DNA of 35,568 nucleotides from a virus: positions 1 through 35,568 of IMG/VR virus record IMGVR_UViG_3300011252_000299, one strand, 5' to 3'. The notes under the pieces were generated by a model, which saw only the letters and a program-made list of their open reading frames with translations, searched no databases and was not told the origin of the DNA. The position numbers and the translations under genes are program-made. Shown piece by piece: positions 9,246 to 24,307 of this stretch. How positions within the stretch are numbered: position 1 is the stretch's first letter; the number at the start of each line of letters is the position of its first letter.

Positions 9246-9653
9246 ATGGAAATTAAAAGAATTTACCACTCATGGGAAAAATGGGAAGATTACAAAGCAG
9301 GATTTTATGACAATATATCTGGTAAAGATAAAAGCATAATGATTGACAAGGTCGTAGAAATGTTTTCTAGTAAAGATCTTACAGAAAAATACATGGATAA
9401 AGTGATTCATAACTGGTTTTATAGCTGTGAGCAAAATTTAACTAATAACGGTATGAATAAAATTGCTTATATAGGTCAAGCAGCTTGTTGTTTATACTTT
9501 GGTATTCCTGCAACCGTAACTATGGAGGCTTGGAGTGAAGTTGATGAAGAACATCAAATGGAAGCTAACGAGATAGCAACAAAAAAATTAAATGAGTGGG
9601 AAAGGATTTATTCTAAAGCTCTAATACAAATGTCTAGCGACAATAAATGTTAA
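9246..9653 (+). CDS. Conserved partner of PAPS-reductase/ParB phage cassettes
   Basis: A 135-aa protein with the pattern R-I-Y-H-x-W-E-x-W-E-D-Y-K-A-G near the N-terminus, then SCEQNLTNNGMNKIAYIGQA and CCLYFGIPATVTMEAW. From memory, phage proteins with this IYH...WEDYK...SCEHNLTN...GQAA signature occur next to IbrA/IbrB-like genes, as here. No catalytic motif is known to me. The conserved Cys, His and Asn residues could form an active or metal site. It shares the promoter at 9214 with the next two genes (4-bp gap). Confidence 0.7.
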   Translation: MEIKRIYHSWEKWEDYKAGFYDNISGKDKSIMIDKVVEMFSSKDLTEKYMDKVIHNWFYSCEQNLTNNGMNKIAYIGQAACCLYFGIPATVTMEAWSEVDEEHQMEANEIATKKLNEWERIYSKALIQMSSDNKC

Positions 9654-9657
9654 AATT

Positions 9658-10893
9658 ATGGCAAAGATAGATTTAGGAATGAATGTTTTAGATGCTGCTA
9701 TTGATAGAATAGAGTTTGCGTTTGATAACTTTGAGAAAATTTATGTTTCTTTTAGTGCAGGAAAAGATTCAACTGTTATGCTTCATTTAGCAATGGATGA
9801 GGCTAGAAAAAGAAAGCGTAAGATAGGTGTTTTAATTGTGGATTTAGAAGGTCAGTATAAATTTACAATCGATCACATAAACGAAATGATAAAGGAATAT
9901 GAGGAGTTTATAGATTTGTATTGGGTTTGTTTACCTTTACATTTAAGAAATGCAGTTTCTGTTTATGAGCCATTTTGGAAATGTTGGGATATAGAACGAA
10001 AAGAAGATTGGATAAGAGAAGCTCCAGAGCAAGCAATTACAGATTATAACTACTTTCCTTTCTTTAGAGATGGAATGGAGTTTGAGGAGTTTGTTCCAGA
10101 ATTTGGAGAGTGGTATTCAAAAGGAGAATTAACAGCCTGCATGGTAGGTATTAGAACAGACGAAAGTCTAAATAGATATAGAACAATTGCAAGCACTACA
10201 AAAACAAGATTTAAAGATAAGCAATTTACTACATTGGTAACTCCAAATGTTTTTAACTTTTATCCTGTTTACGATTGGCGAACAGAGGATGTTTGGATAT
10301 ATCATTCAAAATTCCCAAACAAGAGGTTAAACGAACTTTATGAGTTAATGAATAAAGCAGGATTATCAATACATCAACAAAGAATTTGTCAACCTTATGG
10401 AGATGACCAAAGAAGGGGTTTGTGGTTGTTTCATTTGATTGAGCCAGAAACATGGGCAAAAGTAGTGGCAAGGGTAAACGGTGCTAATTCTGGAGCTTTA
10501 TATGTAAATGAAAGCGGATCAATTACAGGTTATAATAAAATAACTAAACCAGACCACCACACATGGAAAAGTTTTGCAGAGTTGTTTTTAAACTCAGTAC
10601 CAGAAGTAACAAAAGAGCATTATTTAAATAAAATATTTACATTTACAGAGTGGTGGGAAAAAAGAGGTTATGAGGATGGTATTCCAGATGAAACACCTTA
10701 TTTATTAGAAGCTAAAAAACTAACACCTTCATGGAGGAGAGTATGTAAAGCATTATTAAGAAATGATTACTGGTGTAAAGGATTAGGGTTTACACAACAC
10801 AAAACAGCAGCATACCAAAATTACTTAGACTTAAAAAAGAAAAAAAGAGCAGAAGCTAAATTATTACAAACAAATAAATCAATTGAACTATGA
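9658..10893 (+). CDS. PAPS-reductase-like protein, IbrA/DUF3440-like
   Basis: A 411-aa member of the adenine-nucleotide alpha-hydrolase (PP-loop) superfamily. Residues 33-39 (SAGKDST) form the ATP pyrophosphate loop, GIRTDES at 164-170 is the second conserved motif, and the long C-terminal half is typical of the IbrA/DUF3440 branch rather than of assimilatory CysH. Relatives include DndC, which works in DNA phosphorothioation. In phages the substrate of this branch is not established to my knowledge. It overlaps the ParB-like gene by four bases, as expected for a functional pair. Confidence 0.88.
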   Translation: MAKIDLGMNVLDAAIDRIEFAFDNFEKIYVSFSAGKDSTVMLHLAMDEARKRKRKIGVLIVDLEGQYKFTIDHINEMIKEYEEFIDLYWVCLPLHLRNAVSVYEPFWKCWDIERKEDWIREAPEQAITDYNYFPFFRDGMEFEEFVPEFGEWYSKGELTACMVGIRTDESLNRYRTIASTTKTRFKDKQFTTLVTPNVFNFYPVYDWRTEDVWIYHSKFPNKRLNELYELMNKAGLSIHQQRICQPYGDDQRRGLWLFHLIEPETWAKVVARVNGANSGALYVNESGSITGYNKITKPDHHTWKSFAELFLNSVPEVTKEHYLNKIFTFTEWWEKRGYEDGIPDETPYLLEAKKLTPSWRRVCKALLRNDYWCKGLGFTQHKTAAYQNYLDLKKKKRAEAKLLQTNKSIEL

Positions 10894-12683: not shown

Positions 12684-12691
12684 TATATTTG
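12684..12691 (+). promoter_or_regulatory. Promoter of the structured RNA (-7 TATATTTG)
   Basis: A perfect TAnnTTTG. The start of transcription expected a few bases after it (about 12695-12699) coincides with the first base of the 5' hairpin at 12698. There is no TTG at normal -33 spacing; the operator-like dyad occupies that region. Confidence 0.7.
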
Positions 12692-12697
12692 TAAAAG

Positions 12698-12803
12698 TTT
12701 GTTATTGTAAGATGTCGAGAAACTAATAACAAAACAAGGAATTAATACAATTACCCTTATAGAATGAAGCCCTCGACAGGTGGATTTTTATAAGGGTTTT
12801 TTA
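12698..12803 (+). ncRNA. Candidate small RNA with two hairpins and kissing loop
   Basis: The 5' hairpin pairs 12698-12706 (TTTGTTATT) with 12725-12733 (AATAACAAA), nine perfect pairs around an 18-nt loop. The 3' hairpin pairs 12753-12764 with 12786-12797 (ACCCTTATA/TATAAGGGT plus three more pairs). Loop 1 carries TGTCGAG (12713-12719) and loop 2 carries CTCGACA (12772-12778), perfect complements, so a 7-bp loop-loop helix is predicted. Six Ts follow the second hairpin. No frame of note lies inside. It may be a free RNA or the attenuating leader of the gene at 12827. Family not recognised. Confidence 0.7.
12753..12803 (+). terminator. Intrinsic terminator forming the RNA's 3' hairpin
   Basis: A 12-bp stem (12753-12764 with 12786-12797, one G-U pair) followed by TTTTTT and then ATTT. 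The 21-nt loop is unusually large for a terminator and contains the 7-mer that can pair with the upstream loop. Confidence 0.75.
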
Positions 12804-12826: not shown

Positions 12827-13048
12827 ATGGAACACTCAATGTATCACGAAGGATTAAACACAGAATTAGTAATTGATGAAACGCTATGCGAAAATACAAG
12901 TATAGAGATAAACGACTTAACCAATGGAACTTCTACACATCATTTTTTAACACCTAAAGAGCTTAGAAGTTTTATAGGTATATTGCTTCATATACAGGCA
13001 AAGAAGAAAAAAGATAGTGAGTTTGAACGTTTGTCTAAATCTTTTTAA
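12827..13048 (+). CDS. Small hypothetical protein (73 aa) after the RNA element
   Basis: A 73-aa protein, acidic N-terminal half (NTELVIDETLCENTSIEIND) and a helical basic C-terminal half (LTPKELRSFIGILLHIQAKK). The middle, HHFLTPKELRSFIG, suggests a beta hairpin plus helix. No family recognised. It begins 24 bp after the intrinsic terminator, so its expression would depend on read-through or an unseen promoter. It joins the replisome organiser gene through a TAATTATG junction. Confidence 0.65.
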   Translation: MEHSMYHEGLNTELVIDETLCENTSIEINDLTNGTSTHHFLTPKELRSFIGILLHIQAKKKKDSEFERLSKSF

Positions 13049-13050
13049 TT

Positions 13051-13725
13051 ATGGATAGTGGTTATATTTTATTATCTAGAGGAGTACTAGATAGTGATGT
13101 TTTTGCATCTCAGAAACTACTCAAAATATGGGTTTGGTGTTTATGTAAAGCAAACTTTAAAGATCGTTTTGTTCCTTTAAAAATTGGAAAAGGAGAAACA
13201 GTTGTTAGTGTTAAAAGAGGCTCTTTTATATTTGGCAGACATAAAGCAGAGGAGGAATTATTTATTGATGGCTCAACTATCTATAAATCAATCAAAAAGC
13301 TAGAAAAAATGGATATGATAAAAATTGAAAGTAACAACCAATATTCAATCGTAACTATCTGTAAATACAATACTTATCAAGATGCTAATATTTACAAGGT
13401 AACAACCAAAGAACAAGTAAGTCTCAACCAAGTAACAAGTAAGTCTCAACCAAGTAACACAACTAAAGCATTACCTAATGTTAATAATGATAAGAAAGAA
13501 TTATTAAAGGATTGGCTAGATTATAGGATTGAAATTAAAAAAGAAATTAAATCTAACGCAACAATGAAAACATTAATTAACAGGTTTAACAAAGAGCCTT
13601 TAAGTGTTGTTAAAAATGTAGTTAATCAATCAATAGAAAATAATTATCAAGGTTTATTTTGGGATAAAGCAGTTAAAGAAAAAAAGAAATCCTCAAAATC
13701 AGCAACATCTAATTTATCTTTTTAA
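13051..13725 (+). CDS. Replisome organiser / replication initiator
   Basis: A 224-aa protein. The N-terminal winged-helix part matches phage replisome-organiser N-domains: ILLSRGVLDSDVFASQKLLK, IWVWCLCKANFKDR, KRGSFIFGRHKAEEEL and a helix pair with STIYKSIKKLEKMDMIKIES. A linker (about 115-150) contains the repeat-encoded segment. The C-terminal part (KDWLDYRIEIKKEIKSNATM, then QGLFWDKA) resembles DnaD/DnaT-type ssDNA- or helicase-binding tails. Expected role: open the origin and load the helicase encoded next door. Confidence 0.75.
   Translation: MDSGYILLSRGVLDSDVFASQKLLKIWVWCLCKANFKDRFVPLKIGKGETVVSVKRGSFIFGRHKAEEELFIDGSTIYKSIKKLEKMDMIKIESNNQYSIVTICKYNTYQDANIYKVTTKEQVSLNQVTSKSQPSNTTKALPNVNNDKKELLKDWLDYRIEIKKEIKSNATMKTLINRFNKEPLSVVKNVVNQSIENNYQGLFWDKAVKEKKKSSKSATSNLSF
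13413..13456. repeat. Two perfect 22-bp tandem repeats; candidate origin iterons
   Basis: The 22-bp unit at 13413-13434 (it contains GTAAGTCTCAACC) is repeated exactly at 13435-13456, plus two bases of a third copy. 22 is not a multiple of three, so the two copies are read in different frames, giving unrelated residues (QVSLNQ and KSQPSN). This favours selection on DNA. A related sequence (GGTAACAACCAA) precedes them at about 13398. Phage origins often lie inside the initiator gene. Confidence 0.6.
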
Positions 13726-13727
13726 TT

Positions 13728-15521
13728 ATGTATAATTTTATAGAGTGGAAAAGTTTGGAGTTTAAAAAAGCTCAAGGAACAGAAAAAGTAAAATGTCCTG
13801 TTTGTGATAAATCAAAACAAAGAGCAGGAGATACACCAATACAAATTAATCATGCAGATGGTTATGGTAAATGCTTTAGATGTGAGAGTTTAACATTTAA
13901 AGAATCTAAAAAGAATGATTATACAGAAAAGGTTTATATAGTTCCAAGTCAAGAATGGAAAAATTATACTAATATATCTGATAAATTAATTAAATTTATT
14001 GAGAGTGAAAGAGGTATAAAACAATCTACATTATTAAATTTAGGTGTAACTGAGGAAAAATATTATCAACCTGCAAAACAAAAAGAAGTTAATAATATTG
14101 TGTTTAATTATTTTGAAGGAGAAACAATAGTTAATAAAAAATATAGGACATCTGACAAAAAATTTACTCAATCAAAAGGAGGTAAGCCAATATTTTATAA
14201 TATCAATTCTGTAATAGATTCTGAGGAAGTTTATATTGTAGAGGGAGAATTTGATGTTTTAGCATTACATGATTATGGAATTAAAAATTGTATATCTGTT
14301 CCCAATGGTGCTAATGATAATGATGATTATTGGAAAAACTCAGAAAAATATTTAAAAAATGTTAAAAAGTTTATTATAGCTTTAGATAATGATGAGAAAG
14401 GGAATGATTTAAAAGAAAAAGTAGCTCAAAGATTAGGTAGGTACAGATGTGAATTTATAGAATGGAAAAATAAAGATGCTAATGGAGATTTAATTAGTGG
14501 AGATATTGAGAGCAGTTTAAATAGCAGACGTAAATTTCCTGTAAGTGGTACTTTTCAAGTTGAGGATATGTATAATGATATTTTAGGCTTATATGATAAT
14601 GGTTTACCAGATACTTTAAGTCCTCAACATCCTTGTTTTGGTAATCTTAAAAAAGTTTTTAGTGTTATGAGAGGACAGCTTTCTGTTATTACAGGTATTC
14701 CATCTCATGGTAAAAGTAATTATTCAGAGTGGCACGTTTTAAACATGGTAAAAGATTACAATATGAAAACTTCATTTTTTAGTCCAGAACATACACCAAT
14801 GCATTTACACCAAACAAACTTTATACAAAAGGCAATAGGTAAAAACTTTTGGAAAGAATCAGAAGGAGTACCAAGAATAACAAAAGAAGATATTGCAAGA
14901 TATAAAGATTGGGCAAATGAGAGAATATATTTAACAGCTCCAGAAAGTGGAGAGTATCCAACATGGGATTGGTTATTTGAAAAGTTCAAAGAGCAGGTTT
15001 ATTCTTTTGGTATTGATATATTTGTAATAGATGCTTTTAATAAATTAGAATTACCTACAGGAGAATCTAGGGATCAAATAAACAAAGTATTAACTAAATT
15101 GACTATGTTTGCACAAATGAATAATGTTGTTGTTTTTTTAGTTGCACATCCTACTAAAATGAAGAAACAAGAAAATGGTACTTATGAATGTCCAACCTTG
15201 TATGATGTTTCTGGTAGTTCAGATTTTAGAAACCAAACACATAATGGATTTGGTATTTATAGACATTTTGAAAATGAAGAAATTAACGAAAGTGGATATA
15301 CTGAATTTGTTAATCTAAAAACTAAAATGAGTTTTCAAGGGGAAATAGGGCAAAAGGTAGAATTTGATTATCATATTCCTACAGGTAGATATTATGCTAA
15401 AGGAACTGCAATACCATGTTTTGATATGACAAAGAATGAAAATGAACAAGAAAAAATAGAAGCCATACAACCTAACACAGATTTTGATTTATCAGAAGAT
15501 GAGCAAGCACTACCATTTTAA
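13728..15521 (+). CDS. Primase-helicase (TOPRIM plus DnaB-type)
   Basis: A 597-aa bifunctional replication enzyme like T7 gp4. Zinc site: C23/C26 and C49/C52. TOPRIM: VEGEFD (170-175) with E171, and LDNDEKG (218-224). RecA-like helicase: Walker A GIPSHGKS (322-329), Walker B FVIDAFN (431-437) and VAHPTK (471-476), then SSDFRNQTHN arginine/glutamine motifs. It would unwind the fork and prime the lagging strand. The acidic C-terminus ends in EDEQALPF, like the SSB tail. It follows the replisome organiser at a TAATTATG junction. Confidence 0.93.
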   Translation: MYNFIEWKSLEFKKAQGTEKVKCPVCDKSKQRAGDTPIQINHADGYGKCFRCESLTFKESKKNDYTEKVYIVPSQEWKNYTNISDKLIKFIESERGIKQSTLLNLGVTEEKYYQPAKQKEVNNIVFNYFEGETIVNKKYRTSDKKFTQSKGGKPIFYNINSVIDSEEVYIVEGEFDVLALHDYGIKNCISVPNGANDNDDYWKNSEKYLKNVKKFIIALDNDEKGNDLKEKVAQRLGRYRCEFIEWKNKDANGDLISGDIESSLNSRRKFPVSGTFQVEDMYNDILGLYDNGLPDTLSPQHPCFGNLKKVFSVMRGQLSVITGIPSHGKSNYSEWHVLNMVKDYNMKTSFFSPEHTPMHLHQTNFIQKAIGKNFWKESEGVPRITKEDIARYKDWANERIYLTAPESGEYPTWDWLFEKFKEQVYSFGIDIFVIDAFNKLELPTGESRDQINKVLTKLTMFAQMNNVVVFLVAHPTKMKKQENGTYECPTLYDVSGSSDFRNQTHNGFGIYRHFENEEINESGYTEFVNLKTKMSFQGEIGQKVEFDYHIPTGRYYAKGTAIPCFDMTKNENEQEKIEAIQPNTDFDLSEDEQALPF

Positions 15522-17697: not shown

Positions 17698-18360
17698 ATG
17701 AAGGATAAAAAAATACTATTTATAATTACAAGCTATAAACGTTTAGACATGCTAAAAAATCTGCTCCTACAAATTAAAGGATATGATGTATTAGTGTTTG
17801 ATGATGGGAGTGACTTTTCAATAGAAGGAAATGGTGTAAAATTCCATAAATTTAAACAGAATTATGGTAAAAAATTAGCATGGCTAAAGTTTCAAAAGAT
17901 ATTTAAAAAAGTAAAGAGATTAAAAAAATATGATTACTATTATTTATTGCCAGATGATATAAAACTATGTGAGGACTTTACAAATAAATCTATTGAGCTA
18001 TGGGAAGGAATAGAGGATAGTAAAAAAATAACTTTATCTTTTAGTAATCCTGCTAGATGTACTGCTCCACAATTTACTTTCATACAGCCACAAATTAAAG
18101 GAAATGTAATTTTAACAGGATGGATGGATTTAATGTGTCTATTTACTAGAGAGTTTATTAATAAAGTAGATATTACAGAGATTCCATTAAGTAGATGGGA
18201 GGATAATGAATTATTAGGAAGTGGTGTAGGTAGTCAAATCTCCAACAAATTTGTAGATGCAGGTTTTAATCTTTACAATACTAAAGATAAATTAGTAGAG
18301 CATTTAGGTAATAATGATAGTAAAATGAATCCAAACGAAAGAGTAAATAATCCCTTATAA
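17698..18360 (+). CDS. Glycosyltransferase, GT-A fold (first of pair)
   Basis: A 220-aa protein with a GT2-like layout: ILFIITSYKRLDMLKNLL (5-22), VLVFDDGSDFS (31-41) for the nucleotide-sugar base, then YYLLPDDIK near residue 83 supplying the acidic DD pair that binds metal and sugar diphosphate, and a C-terminal SRWEDNELLGSG. It could decorate phage DNA, virion or host surface; acceptor unknown. It lies 8 bp after repeat copy 1 and 3 bp before a second glycosyltransferase. Confidence 0.78.
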   Translation: MKDKKILFIITSYKRLDMLKNLLLQIKGYDVLVFDDGSDFSIEGNGVKFHKFKQNYGKKLAWLKFQKIFKKVKRLKKYDYYYLLPDDIKLCEDFTNKSIELWEGIEDSKKITLSFSNPARCTAPQFTFIQPQIKGNVILTGWMDLMCLFTREFINKVDITEIPLSRWEDNELLGSGVGSQISNKFVDAGFNLYNTKDKLVEHLGNNDSKMNPNERVNNPL

Positions 18361-18363
18361 ATT

Positions 18364-19041
18364 ATGGTTAATGTATTAGTGGCATCTTTGCCAGAAAGAG
18401 AAAAAGAATTGTATCATACTGTATTCTCATTGCTAGATCAAGTAGATTGTATTCATGTAGTTTTAAATAATTACAAACACAATCCTTTTGATTTTGTTGA
18501 TAGAAATAAACATAAGATAAAAGTGTATTTTTCTGATAATTCTCTTGGAGATGCAGCGAGATATATCCCTTTATCTGATATAGAGGATTCGTGGATATTC
18601 ACAGTAGATGATGATTTAATATTTGATAAATACTACATAGAAGATACTATCCAAAGAATGATAGAGAATGATTATAAGATAGCTAGTTATCATGGAAGGA
18701 GTTTTATAAAATATCCTATAGAGAATTATCACAAATCACAAGCTGACAAATATAGATGTTTAGGAGATGTAGAGAATGATACAAAAATAGATGTAGCAGG
18801 AACAGGAGTTTGTTGTTTTCATACTTCCAACTTTAAACCATCTATAGATATATTTACAGATAAAAATATGTCGGACGTTTTGTTTAGTTGTTACGCAAAA
18901 GAGCAGGGAATAGATATGTATTGTTTATCTCATAAAAGCGATTATTTTAGGTATCAAGAAGTACCTAATACTATTTATGAGCAAAGAGTAAATAATTGTG
19001 AAAGAGAAACAGAGATAATAAATAACTATTTTAATAAGTGA
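18364..19041 (+). CDS. Glycosyltransferase, GT-A fold (second of pair)
   Basis: A 225-aa protein: VNVLVASLPEREKELYHTVF at the N-terminus (a S-L/Y-P-x-R opening typical of sugar transferases), a middle segment KVYFSDNSLGDAARY, then WIFTVDDDLIFDKYY with the DDD metal motif near 77-79, and VAGTGVCCFH in the acceptor half. It is coupled to the previous transferase and probably acts in the same pathway. A cluster of cysteines near 150 is unusual. No membrane anchor, so cytoplasmic. Confidence 0.78.
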   Translation: MVNVLVASLPEREKELYHTVFSLLDQVDCIHVVLNNYKHNPFDFVDRNKHKIKVYFSDNSLGDAARYIPLSDIEDSWIFTVDDDLIFDKYYIEDTIQRMIENDYKIASYHGRSFIKYPIENYHKSQADKYRCLGDVENDTKIDVAGTGVCCFHTSNFKPSIDIFTDKNMSDVLFSCYAKEQGIDMYCLSHKSDYFRYQEVPNTIYEQRVNNCERETEIINNYFNK

Positions 19042-23041: not shown

Positions 23042-23628
23042 GTTGGCAAATAACAGTAGAGCCTGCAACAGAGCCTATAACATTAGTAGAGGCTAAAGCA
23101 CATCTAAGAGTTGATTTTTCAGATGAGGATGACTACATAGATACATTAATAGTTTCTGCACGTAGATATTGTGAGGCTTATTGCAATAGAGTATTTATTA
23201 CTCAAACATGGAGGCAAAATTTAAGCGAGTGGGTTAATCCTATTCAATTAAAAGTTAATCCTGTTATTAGTGTAACAAGTTTAAAATACTATGATACAGA
23301 TGAAACTCAGCAAACTATCACAGATAATGCTAATAACTATCAAAAGGACTTAAATAGTGATGTAGCAAAGATATATGAGGGATTAGTAAATACTTTTCCT
23401 GCTATTGGCTCTACAATTAATCCTATTGAGATAATTACAGTTTGTGGATATGGAGCAGCAGCAGATGTGCCAGATGATATAAAGCATGCTATTAAATTGA
23501 TGGTAAGTTGGATGTATGAAAATAGAGAGGGTGTTAATGTACCTTTAAATAATCAAGCATCAGACATTCCATTACCTACAGCAGTAAAATATTTATTAAC
23601 TAGATACAGAATTAATGTCTTTGGATAG
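23038..23628 (+). CDS. Head-tail connector, gp6-like
   Basis: A 196-aa adaptor that binds the portal ring. Signature at the N-terminus: ITLVEAKAHLRVDFSDEDDY (about 14-33), then IDTLIVSARRYCEAYCNRVF (about 34-53), the four-helix start of the HK97 gp6/SPP1 gp15 family. A beta insertion follows, and the C-terminal helix is IKHAIKLMVSWMYENREG. Its stop overlaps the following transferase-like gene by 14 bp. Confidence 0.9.
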   Translation: MSWQITVEPATEPITLVEAKAHLRVDFSDEDDYIDTLIVSARRYCEAYCNRVFITQTWRQNLSEWVNPIQLKVNPVISVTSLKYYDTDETQQTITDNANNYQKDLNSDVAKIYEGLVNTFPAIGSTINPIEIITVCGYGAAADVPDDIKHAIKLMVSWMYENREGVNVPLNNQASDIPLPTAVKYLLTRYRINVFG

Positions 23629-24307
23629 AACTATAATTTTATTACCAATTTGGGGAAGAAAAGCAATAACTTTACTTTGTCTTAAAAACTTGAAAGAGTT
23701 AAAAGAAAAATATAATTTTGAGGTAATGTGCGTAGTATCTGAATCATGGGCAAAATTAGAGGCATTTAATCATGGTTTTAAATGGGTAGAGGTTTCTAAT
23801 GATGATTTAGGGCATAAAATGAATGTAGGAGTAGAGGCTGTAATGAGAATGGATTTTGATTATATGATGAACTTAGGAAGTGATGATATAATAAATGAGA
23901 AATTATTTGATTTATATGATCCATACATTAAAAAAGAAATAGGAATGTTTGGAATTACAGAAGTAACTTTTGTAGATTCTCAAAGCAAAGAATGTAAAGT
24001 TTGTGATTATCAGATAATGATTGGAGCAGGTAGAATGATTAGTAAGGATTATTTAAAGCAGTTTATAATGGTAGATGGAAAATCTATTATGTATGATAAA
24101 GGAATAAGCAAAGGGTTAGATATGAATAGTATGCAGAAATTTAATGCTACTCATACAGAGATTAAAAGCGAAGGTAATTTAATTTGGGATATAAAGAGTG
24201 ATAGTAATATTTGGGTTTATGATAACATTGGTGGTACTAGTGTTGATTTTGAAACAGGAACAAAGGGCATGAGTACAGAGCAATTAGATGATATTTTTGA
24301 GTTATGA
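23615..24307 (+). CDS. Glycosyltransferase-like protein inside connector operon
   Basis: A 230-aa protein with GT-A features: IILLPIWGRKAITLLCLKNL (7-26), NDDLGHKMNVGVEAVM (about 62-77) and DYMMNLGSDDIIN (about 81-93), whose SDD is the expected metal motif. It starts 14 bp before the connector gene ends and overlaps the head-closure gene by four bases (ATGA), so it is fully embedded in the connector operon. Not a normal part of this module. It could glycosylate a virion protein as it assembles. Fold call by motif only. Confidence 0.72.
   Translation: MSLDRTIILLPIWGRKAITLLCLKNLKELKEKYNFEVMCVVSESWAKLEAFNHGFKWVEVSNDDLGHKMNVGVEAVMRMDFDYMMNLGSDDIINEKLFDLYDPYIKKEIGMFGITEVTFVDSQSKECKVCDYQIMIGAGRMISKDYLKQFIMVDGKSIMYDKGISKGLDMNSMQKFNATHTEIKSEGNLIWDIKSDSNIWVYDNIGGTSVDFETGTKGMSTEQLDDIFEL

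Follow-up and report, generated by a model that had tools for sequence, protein, structure and literature searches.

The replication operon of a phage recovered as a 35.6-kb virus record is preceded by two hairpins with complementary loops, set between a promoter and a T-run, and the locus raises the question of whether these form a genuine RNA element and how it might act on the genes that follow. The whole record (35,568 nt) was analysed and is called the window below.

Anatomy of the Element

On the plus strand, positions 12684–12802 were read as a TAnnTTTG promoter, hairpin 1, a linker, a terminator hairpin and a T-run. The promoter is a Bacteroidota-type −7 box, TATATTTG (12684–12691), and this copy lacks a TTG −33 box. 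Hairpin 1 (12698–12733) has the stem 12698–12707/12724–12733, composed of 9 bp between TTTGTTATT (12698–12706) and AATAACAAA (12725–12733) plus a G-U pair (12707/12724), and its 16-nt loop contains the first kissing strand, TGTCGAG (12713–12719), which is the exact reverse complement of 12772–12778 and covaries with it in the relatives. After an A/T-rich linker of 19 nt (12734–12752) follows hairpin 2, the terminator (12753–12797), recognised by its fold and by helix covariation in the type A alignment described below. Its outer stem of 12 bp, one of them G-U, is formed by ACCCTTATAGAA (12753–12764) and TTTTATAAGGGT (12786–12797), and an internal loop (TGAA, 12765–12768; GGAT, 12782–12785) leads to an inner stem (12769–12771/12779–12781), the apical loop of which is entirely the second kissing strand, CTCGACA (12772–12778). 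The T-run of the intrinsic terminator occupies 12797–12802. The parts listed by an earlier sequence-only reading (two hairpins, a perfect 7-nt loop match, a promoter and a terminator T-run) were all read directly in the window; the loop 7-mers that it had called G/C-rich are so moderately, with only 4/7 G+C.

Both hairpins were predicted by RNAfold, in a compact fold with the 5′ and 3′ ends within helices; the stability was only modestly above that of shuffled sequences (z −1.66), because the pseudoknot is unscored. By our own arithmetic, a perfect 7-mer match between a 16-nt and a 7-nt loop is expected by chance at about 6e-4.

Occurrence in Related Phages

In agreement with the earlier statement that the family was unrecognised, a search of the window and nine related loci against Rfam 15 gave no match at the gathering threshold, and a permissive search gave nothing convincing (best sub-threshold match 24.4 bits, cut-off 63). 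No tRNA or tmRNA was found, and blastn of the element against INPHARED returned nothing beyond short A/T-rich matches. Since the sequence diverges too fast, homologues were sought through gene neighbourhood and one-hairpin patterns. Loci sharing the primase/helicase or the small protein were taken from IMG/VR, bacterial assemblies and INPHARED and read without a sequence model. The relatives have an element of like build in the corresponding position, ahead of the small-protein/DnaD-loader/primase operon, and their kissing sequences mostly differ. Within the first set of loci, six phages shared position and anatomy while their loops were unrelated: GTGGAACA/TGTTCCAC, GTGAGAGC/GCTCTCAC, CTCTCAC/GTGAGAG, CATCCACT/AGTGGATG, CTTCTCAC/GTGAGAAG and CTCACGAC/GTCGTGAG.

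A descriptor requiring TAnnTTTG, two stems, a 7-nt Watson-Crick loop match and a T-run was matched 54 times across 125 non-redundant loci totalling 1.83 Mb; dinucleotide shuffles gave 4, 2 and 6 matches, so that a few of the 54 are expected to be false. Doubtful matches, mostly within long ORFs, were removed by hand. Among the 101 loci with enough upstream sequence, the strict descriptor placed an element at most 1.8 kb upstream of the primase in 28, one further listed match falling within an ORF, and inspection recovered it in loci missed by the strict rule (L022, L043, L048, L049, L071, L083, L086, L088 and L146). Next to distant primases (~30% identity) it was mostly absent. Up to about five copies occur on one contig and at least two on several contigs, with mostly different loops.

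Cultured carriers are hattifnatt9-1 (three copies, near 9372, 13304 and 14346), elemoA, phi19:1, phi10:1, 11b and FCL-2, and probably Nekkels_2; in 11b and FCL-2 the descriptor scan found one element each, filling an annotated gap. The same scan showed nothing convincing in phi38:1, phi14:2, phiST, 6H, B124-14, RAP44, P2559S and P12024L. In Nekkels_2 (L150:39386–39515) the terminator hairpin carries two apical hairpins, and each apical loop seems to have a complement towards the 5′ end (GTCTAAC/GTTAGAC and ATTGGAA/TTCCAAT); this may be a double-kissing variant. In the elemoA record (L147:9667–9786, minus strand) a hypothetical CDS, probably spurious, is annotated over the start of the RNA element.

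For host genomes, the type A hairpin pattern gave 2 matches in 397 Flavobacteriaceae genomes, against 3 for the reversed control, that is, no enrichment of type A. The type A covariance model R1 did not recover the window copy, and its lack of matches in 299 Flavobacteriaceae genomes came from an uninformative search under strict filters.

Conservation of the Kissing Helix

Two scans of IMG/VR, each defined by one hairpin, are the unbiased tests of the loop-loop pairing, since the 27 members aligned below were partly picked by loop match. In the first, only hairpin 1 of one subfamily, TAATGARGTGRRANNCATTA, was specified and the partner was left free; 46 distinct places were obtained, a few of them from earlier loci. 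A 7–8-nt loop complement lay downstream in 27/27 copies with a TAnnTTTG box upstream and in 3/19 copies without it, near-consensus-box copies among these, whereas swapping loops between loci gave a 7–8-nt match in 18/812 combinations. In the second, only hairpin 2 of another subfamily was specified, with a free loop (TTAGTAGAG-N7-CTCGAA); among copies with promoter and T-run, 7/7 positions paired upstream in 14/14 (12 by Watson-Crick pairs, two with one G-U), as compared with 0/144 Watson-Crick 7/7 matches after loop swapping. Within near-identical flanks four kissing pairs were seen: AATGCAA/TTGCATT, ACCGCAA/TTGCGGT, GGTACAA/TTGTACC and GGTGCGG/CTGCACC, the last with one G-U.

In the 27-sequence type A alignment the kissing helix was paired in 216/216 cells, and double-sided changes were found at 4 of its 8 pairs, at two pairs of hairpin 1, six of the outer stem and three of the inner stem; the overall covariation score was reached by 0/500 shuffles. 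The covariation between loops that the sequence-only reading had asked for among homologs is therefore present, and its judgement that the match was unlikely to be chance, right for the window itself, is borne out far more strongly by the comparisons (54 against 4, 2 and 6; 27/27; 14/14). As judged from its sequences, the kissing-loop leader is a real RNA element of flavobacterial phages, because dozens of relatives keep the clasp with different letters.

The kissing positions showed 0.218 differences per site and the outer stem 0.243, and diversifying selection on the kissing loop was thus unsupported. The same figures bear on RNA self-recognition for copy-number or superinfection control, whereby a terminated leader would pair through its loops with a nascent leader of the same allele and enforce termination. 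Self-complementary loop pairs in many alleles and a site at the replication operon are in its favour, but kissing positions that do not evolve faster, the failure to recognise an integrase in the window genes examined, the lack of enrichment of the type A pattern in the 397 host genomes and the presence of the element at homing-endonuclease genes make it very improbable.

Geometry and Subtypes

The kissing helices mostly have 7–8 bp, with a maximum of 10. In type A, the hairpin-1 loop consists of 2 nt followed by an 8-nt kiss and the hairpin-2 loop of the kiss followed by about 5 nt; type B is the reverse (kiss plus 6 nt, then 2 nt plus kiss). In other arrangements the kiss uses the whole of one or both loops, as in the window with its 16-nt loop 1 and 7-nt loop 2. 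In L158 and L159 a type A hairpin occupies the terminator position with its partner upstream, which indicates that the modules can change places. In many members the internal loop of hairpin 2 is rich in purines (UGAA/GGAU in the window), and sheared G-A pairs could form there. Many type A copies contain a small ORF (ATG AAG TGA) in hairpin 1, which was rejected as a constituent, being absent from GTGGAA alleles and from the other types.

Hairpin 1 typically starts 4–6 nt past the promoter box. A TTG −33 box lies 21–22 nt upstream of the TA box in 29/73 descriptor matches, so by its motifs the promoter is of the host type (−33/−7) in many copies, and a T-run of at least four was present in 72/73. 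The predicted RNA is 78–112 nt long (median 101), which supports, with predicted ends, the earlier proposals of a ~105-nt phage RNA and of a leader of the replication operon, here combined in one molecule.

Two other readings were weighed. A stable sRNA acting in trans on a host or phage RNA or protein, with the kissing as nuclease protection and the downstream genes expressed by leaky read-through, would account for a discrete, compactly folded RNA with its own promoter and terminator and with both ends in helices, and prophage IsrK is a precedent of a terminated leader acting as an sRNA (PMC4825925). It is rather unlikely: the kissing sequence varies freely so long as it is internally paired, so the loops are untied to an outside target, and copies stand immediately upstream of genes, at several operons in one phage. 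A put-like leader, which like HK022 putRNA would bind RNA polymerase and carry it through the leader's own terminator and those further on, is suggested by two hairpins at the extreme 5′ end of the predicted transcripts and by putL, which has ~70 nt and two stem-loops just downstream of PL and needs no dedicated protein (PMC9378689). No terminator is described in putRNA, however, while hairpin 2 here is one, and sequence and geometry vary widely. We consider a put-like action quite unlikely.

Genes around the Element

The upstream neighbour in the window is an SSB-like protein (DUF3127/phrog_4932). Downstream, on the plus strand, the first operon gene (12827–13048; phrog_7002) starts 24 nt after the T-run and encodes a 73-aa protein, and it is followed by the DnaD-like helicase loader and primase/helicase (13051–15521), assigned from PHROGs and Pfam matches. 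The 73-aa protein was predicted, with modest confidence (pLDDT 72), as beta-beta-beta-beta-alpha; since the closest structures (Pur-alpha, COMMD domains, Whirly and PC4) were matched with Z of only ~4–6, a role in RNA or ssDNA binding is only a lead from the modelled fold. Diverse small proteins of the same predicted topology, phrog_7002 included, follow the element in many phages. Elsewhere in the window, the early region has a PAPS-reductase-like gene (9658–10893; PF01507 and DUF3440) with a ParB-like gene as its neighbour, and three ORFs at 17698–19041 and 23615–24307 look, from reading the sequences, like glycosyltransferases in this phage of ~36 kb.

Genes found downstream of the element in the relatives encode DnaD/primosomal/O-like initiators, DEAD/SNF2 and PIF1/UvrD-like helicases, a Prim-Pol/DUF3987 protein, an AAA ATPase, N6 and N4 methyltransferases, and NUMOD4-HNH and GIY-YIG homing endonucleases; of the genes checked, none was recognised as structural. 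The earlier description as leader of the replication operon holds in that the position is conserved, but it was too narrow, other operons and homing-endonuclease genes being served too. Elements of the GTCGTCG type precede homing-endonuclease genes in different phages (L058:9709, L146:13304, L196, L190:5338 and L100:2842), as if, going by these arrangements, each endonuclease carried its own promoter-leader cassette. A replication-origin or primer role was rejected on account of the copies at several operons and at homing-endonuclease genes.

In all 70 ATG-led cases the next ATG was no more than 60 nt from the terminator stem, to which it should be added that phages with few strand changes are partly expected to have a downstream gene on the same strand. 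A further TAnnTTTG in the gap between terminator and gene was found in 0/72. The layout is therefore that of an attenuator at the sequence level: the promoter is followed in turn by the leader, the intrinsic terminator and the gene, and no second promoter lies beyond the terminator. A 5′ stabiliser or insulator, in which the fold would protect the read-through mRNA or block upstream transcription, is consistent with a 5′ end predicted within a helix and with the occupation of intergenic gaps; but a terminator after the promoter would stop the new transcript too, and a stabiliser has no need of a T-run, so that the probability of this role is smallest of all.

Proposed Mechanism

Because the terminator separates promoter and gene and no second promoter follows, the downstream genes need read-through, and an attenuator-like operon leader is therefore the best explanation; this argument from position, itself drawn from sequence, is the strongest one. 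The chance is about even, in our estimate, that the element is a promoter-proximal leader of the phage replication operon acting as a conditional terminator.

Building on the anatomy, conservation, covariation and position read above, we infer the following course. Transcription would start at hairpin 1 from the host-type promoter, hairpin 1 would fold first, and the loop of the emerging terminator hairpin would kiss loop 1 over 7–8 bp in vivo. The kissing would clamp both hairpins as a compact unit and presumably favour a stable RNA of ~100 nt released at the T-run, so that the downstream genes would be expressed only upon read-through by the polymerase, presumably later in infection. The switch would be a putative trans-acting phage or host factor that breaks the kissing unit or modifies the polymerase; that geometry varies from subfamily to subfamily speaks against recognition of one fixed shape by a single protein. 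Leaders at several operons of one phage could time those operons together, and the mostly different loops within one genome would limit cross-pairing.

The direction of the effect may be judged from the fold. Competition of the loop-loop pairing with terminator folding, as first suggested, was not borne out: the kissing helix can coexist with the two hairpins, and the consensus fold that RNAalifold derived from the type A alignment consisted of just these hairpins, with no conserved antiterminator or competing helix. Switching through a protein or the polymerase would be compatible with that fold. Loop-loop pairing is for these reasons more likely to strengthen or gate the terminator than to replace it. 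Hairpin 2 alone resembles a good terminator, and the kissing may thus be dispensable for termination.

Comparison with Known Systems

The open-access literature searched held no description of the element, so its novelty is provisional, and nothing on gene timing in these Bacteroidota phages. The natural, conserved linkage of a 5′ hairpin to a terminator loop through a kissing helix appears undescribed, and, provisionally, no described family found joins the two by a covarying kissing helix. A wider reading, which we hold tentatively, is a new mode of RNA control in Bacteroidota phages: the loop of a promoter-proximal hairpin would latch the terminator hairpin through a kissing helix, the whole would form a modular cassette that serves several operons in each phage and is also borne by homing-endonuclease genes, and regulated antitermination would time replication-stage expression. 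The element probably decides when the replication genes switch on; its recurrence in cultured phages makes it a concrete and testable control point, a possible tuning of intrinsic termination by tertiary contacts becomes testable through simple compensatory mutants, and the diverse loop pairs offer a ready-made set of parts that may be orthogonal.

The late leader of lambda, pR′-tR′ (6S RNA), has a promoter, a short terminated RNA and an operon expressed only on read-through, a layout shared by the element. Antitermination by lambda Q acts through promoter-proximal DNA and serves the late operon, with no conserved kissing fold, whereas the present element has such a fold and precedes the replication operon. 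In the RNA immunity of P4 (CI RNA) and P1/P7 (C4 RNA), complementary leader segments are linked to premature termination or repression near replication genes; these RNAs of temperate phages pair in trans with separate target sites, unlike the present partners, which are two loops of one RNA of ~100 nt. HK022 putL and putR are two-hairpin leaders that affect termination and lie close to the 5′ end of early transcripts, and their copies are similar in sequence, with no built-in terminator or loop-loop helix described (PMC9378689). Only the two-hairpin, promoter-proximal layout is in common with put, and a contact with the zinc-binding domain of polymerase beta′ would be carried over here by analogy. 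IsrK of prophage Gifsy-1 is a terminated leader sRNA whose read-through makes phage mRNA, and in its short form it binds this longer transcript in trans, activating its translation; its published summary describes no kissing with the terminator loop, by which the element differs (PMC4825925). The phi29 pRNA, GOLLD and ROOL are likewise phage-associated and have kissing loops (PMC12286853 for GOLLD and ROOL), but they act in packaging or form homo-oligomers, the latter being large RNAs, while the element described here is small, leads an operon and ends in a terminator.
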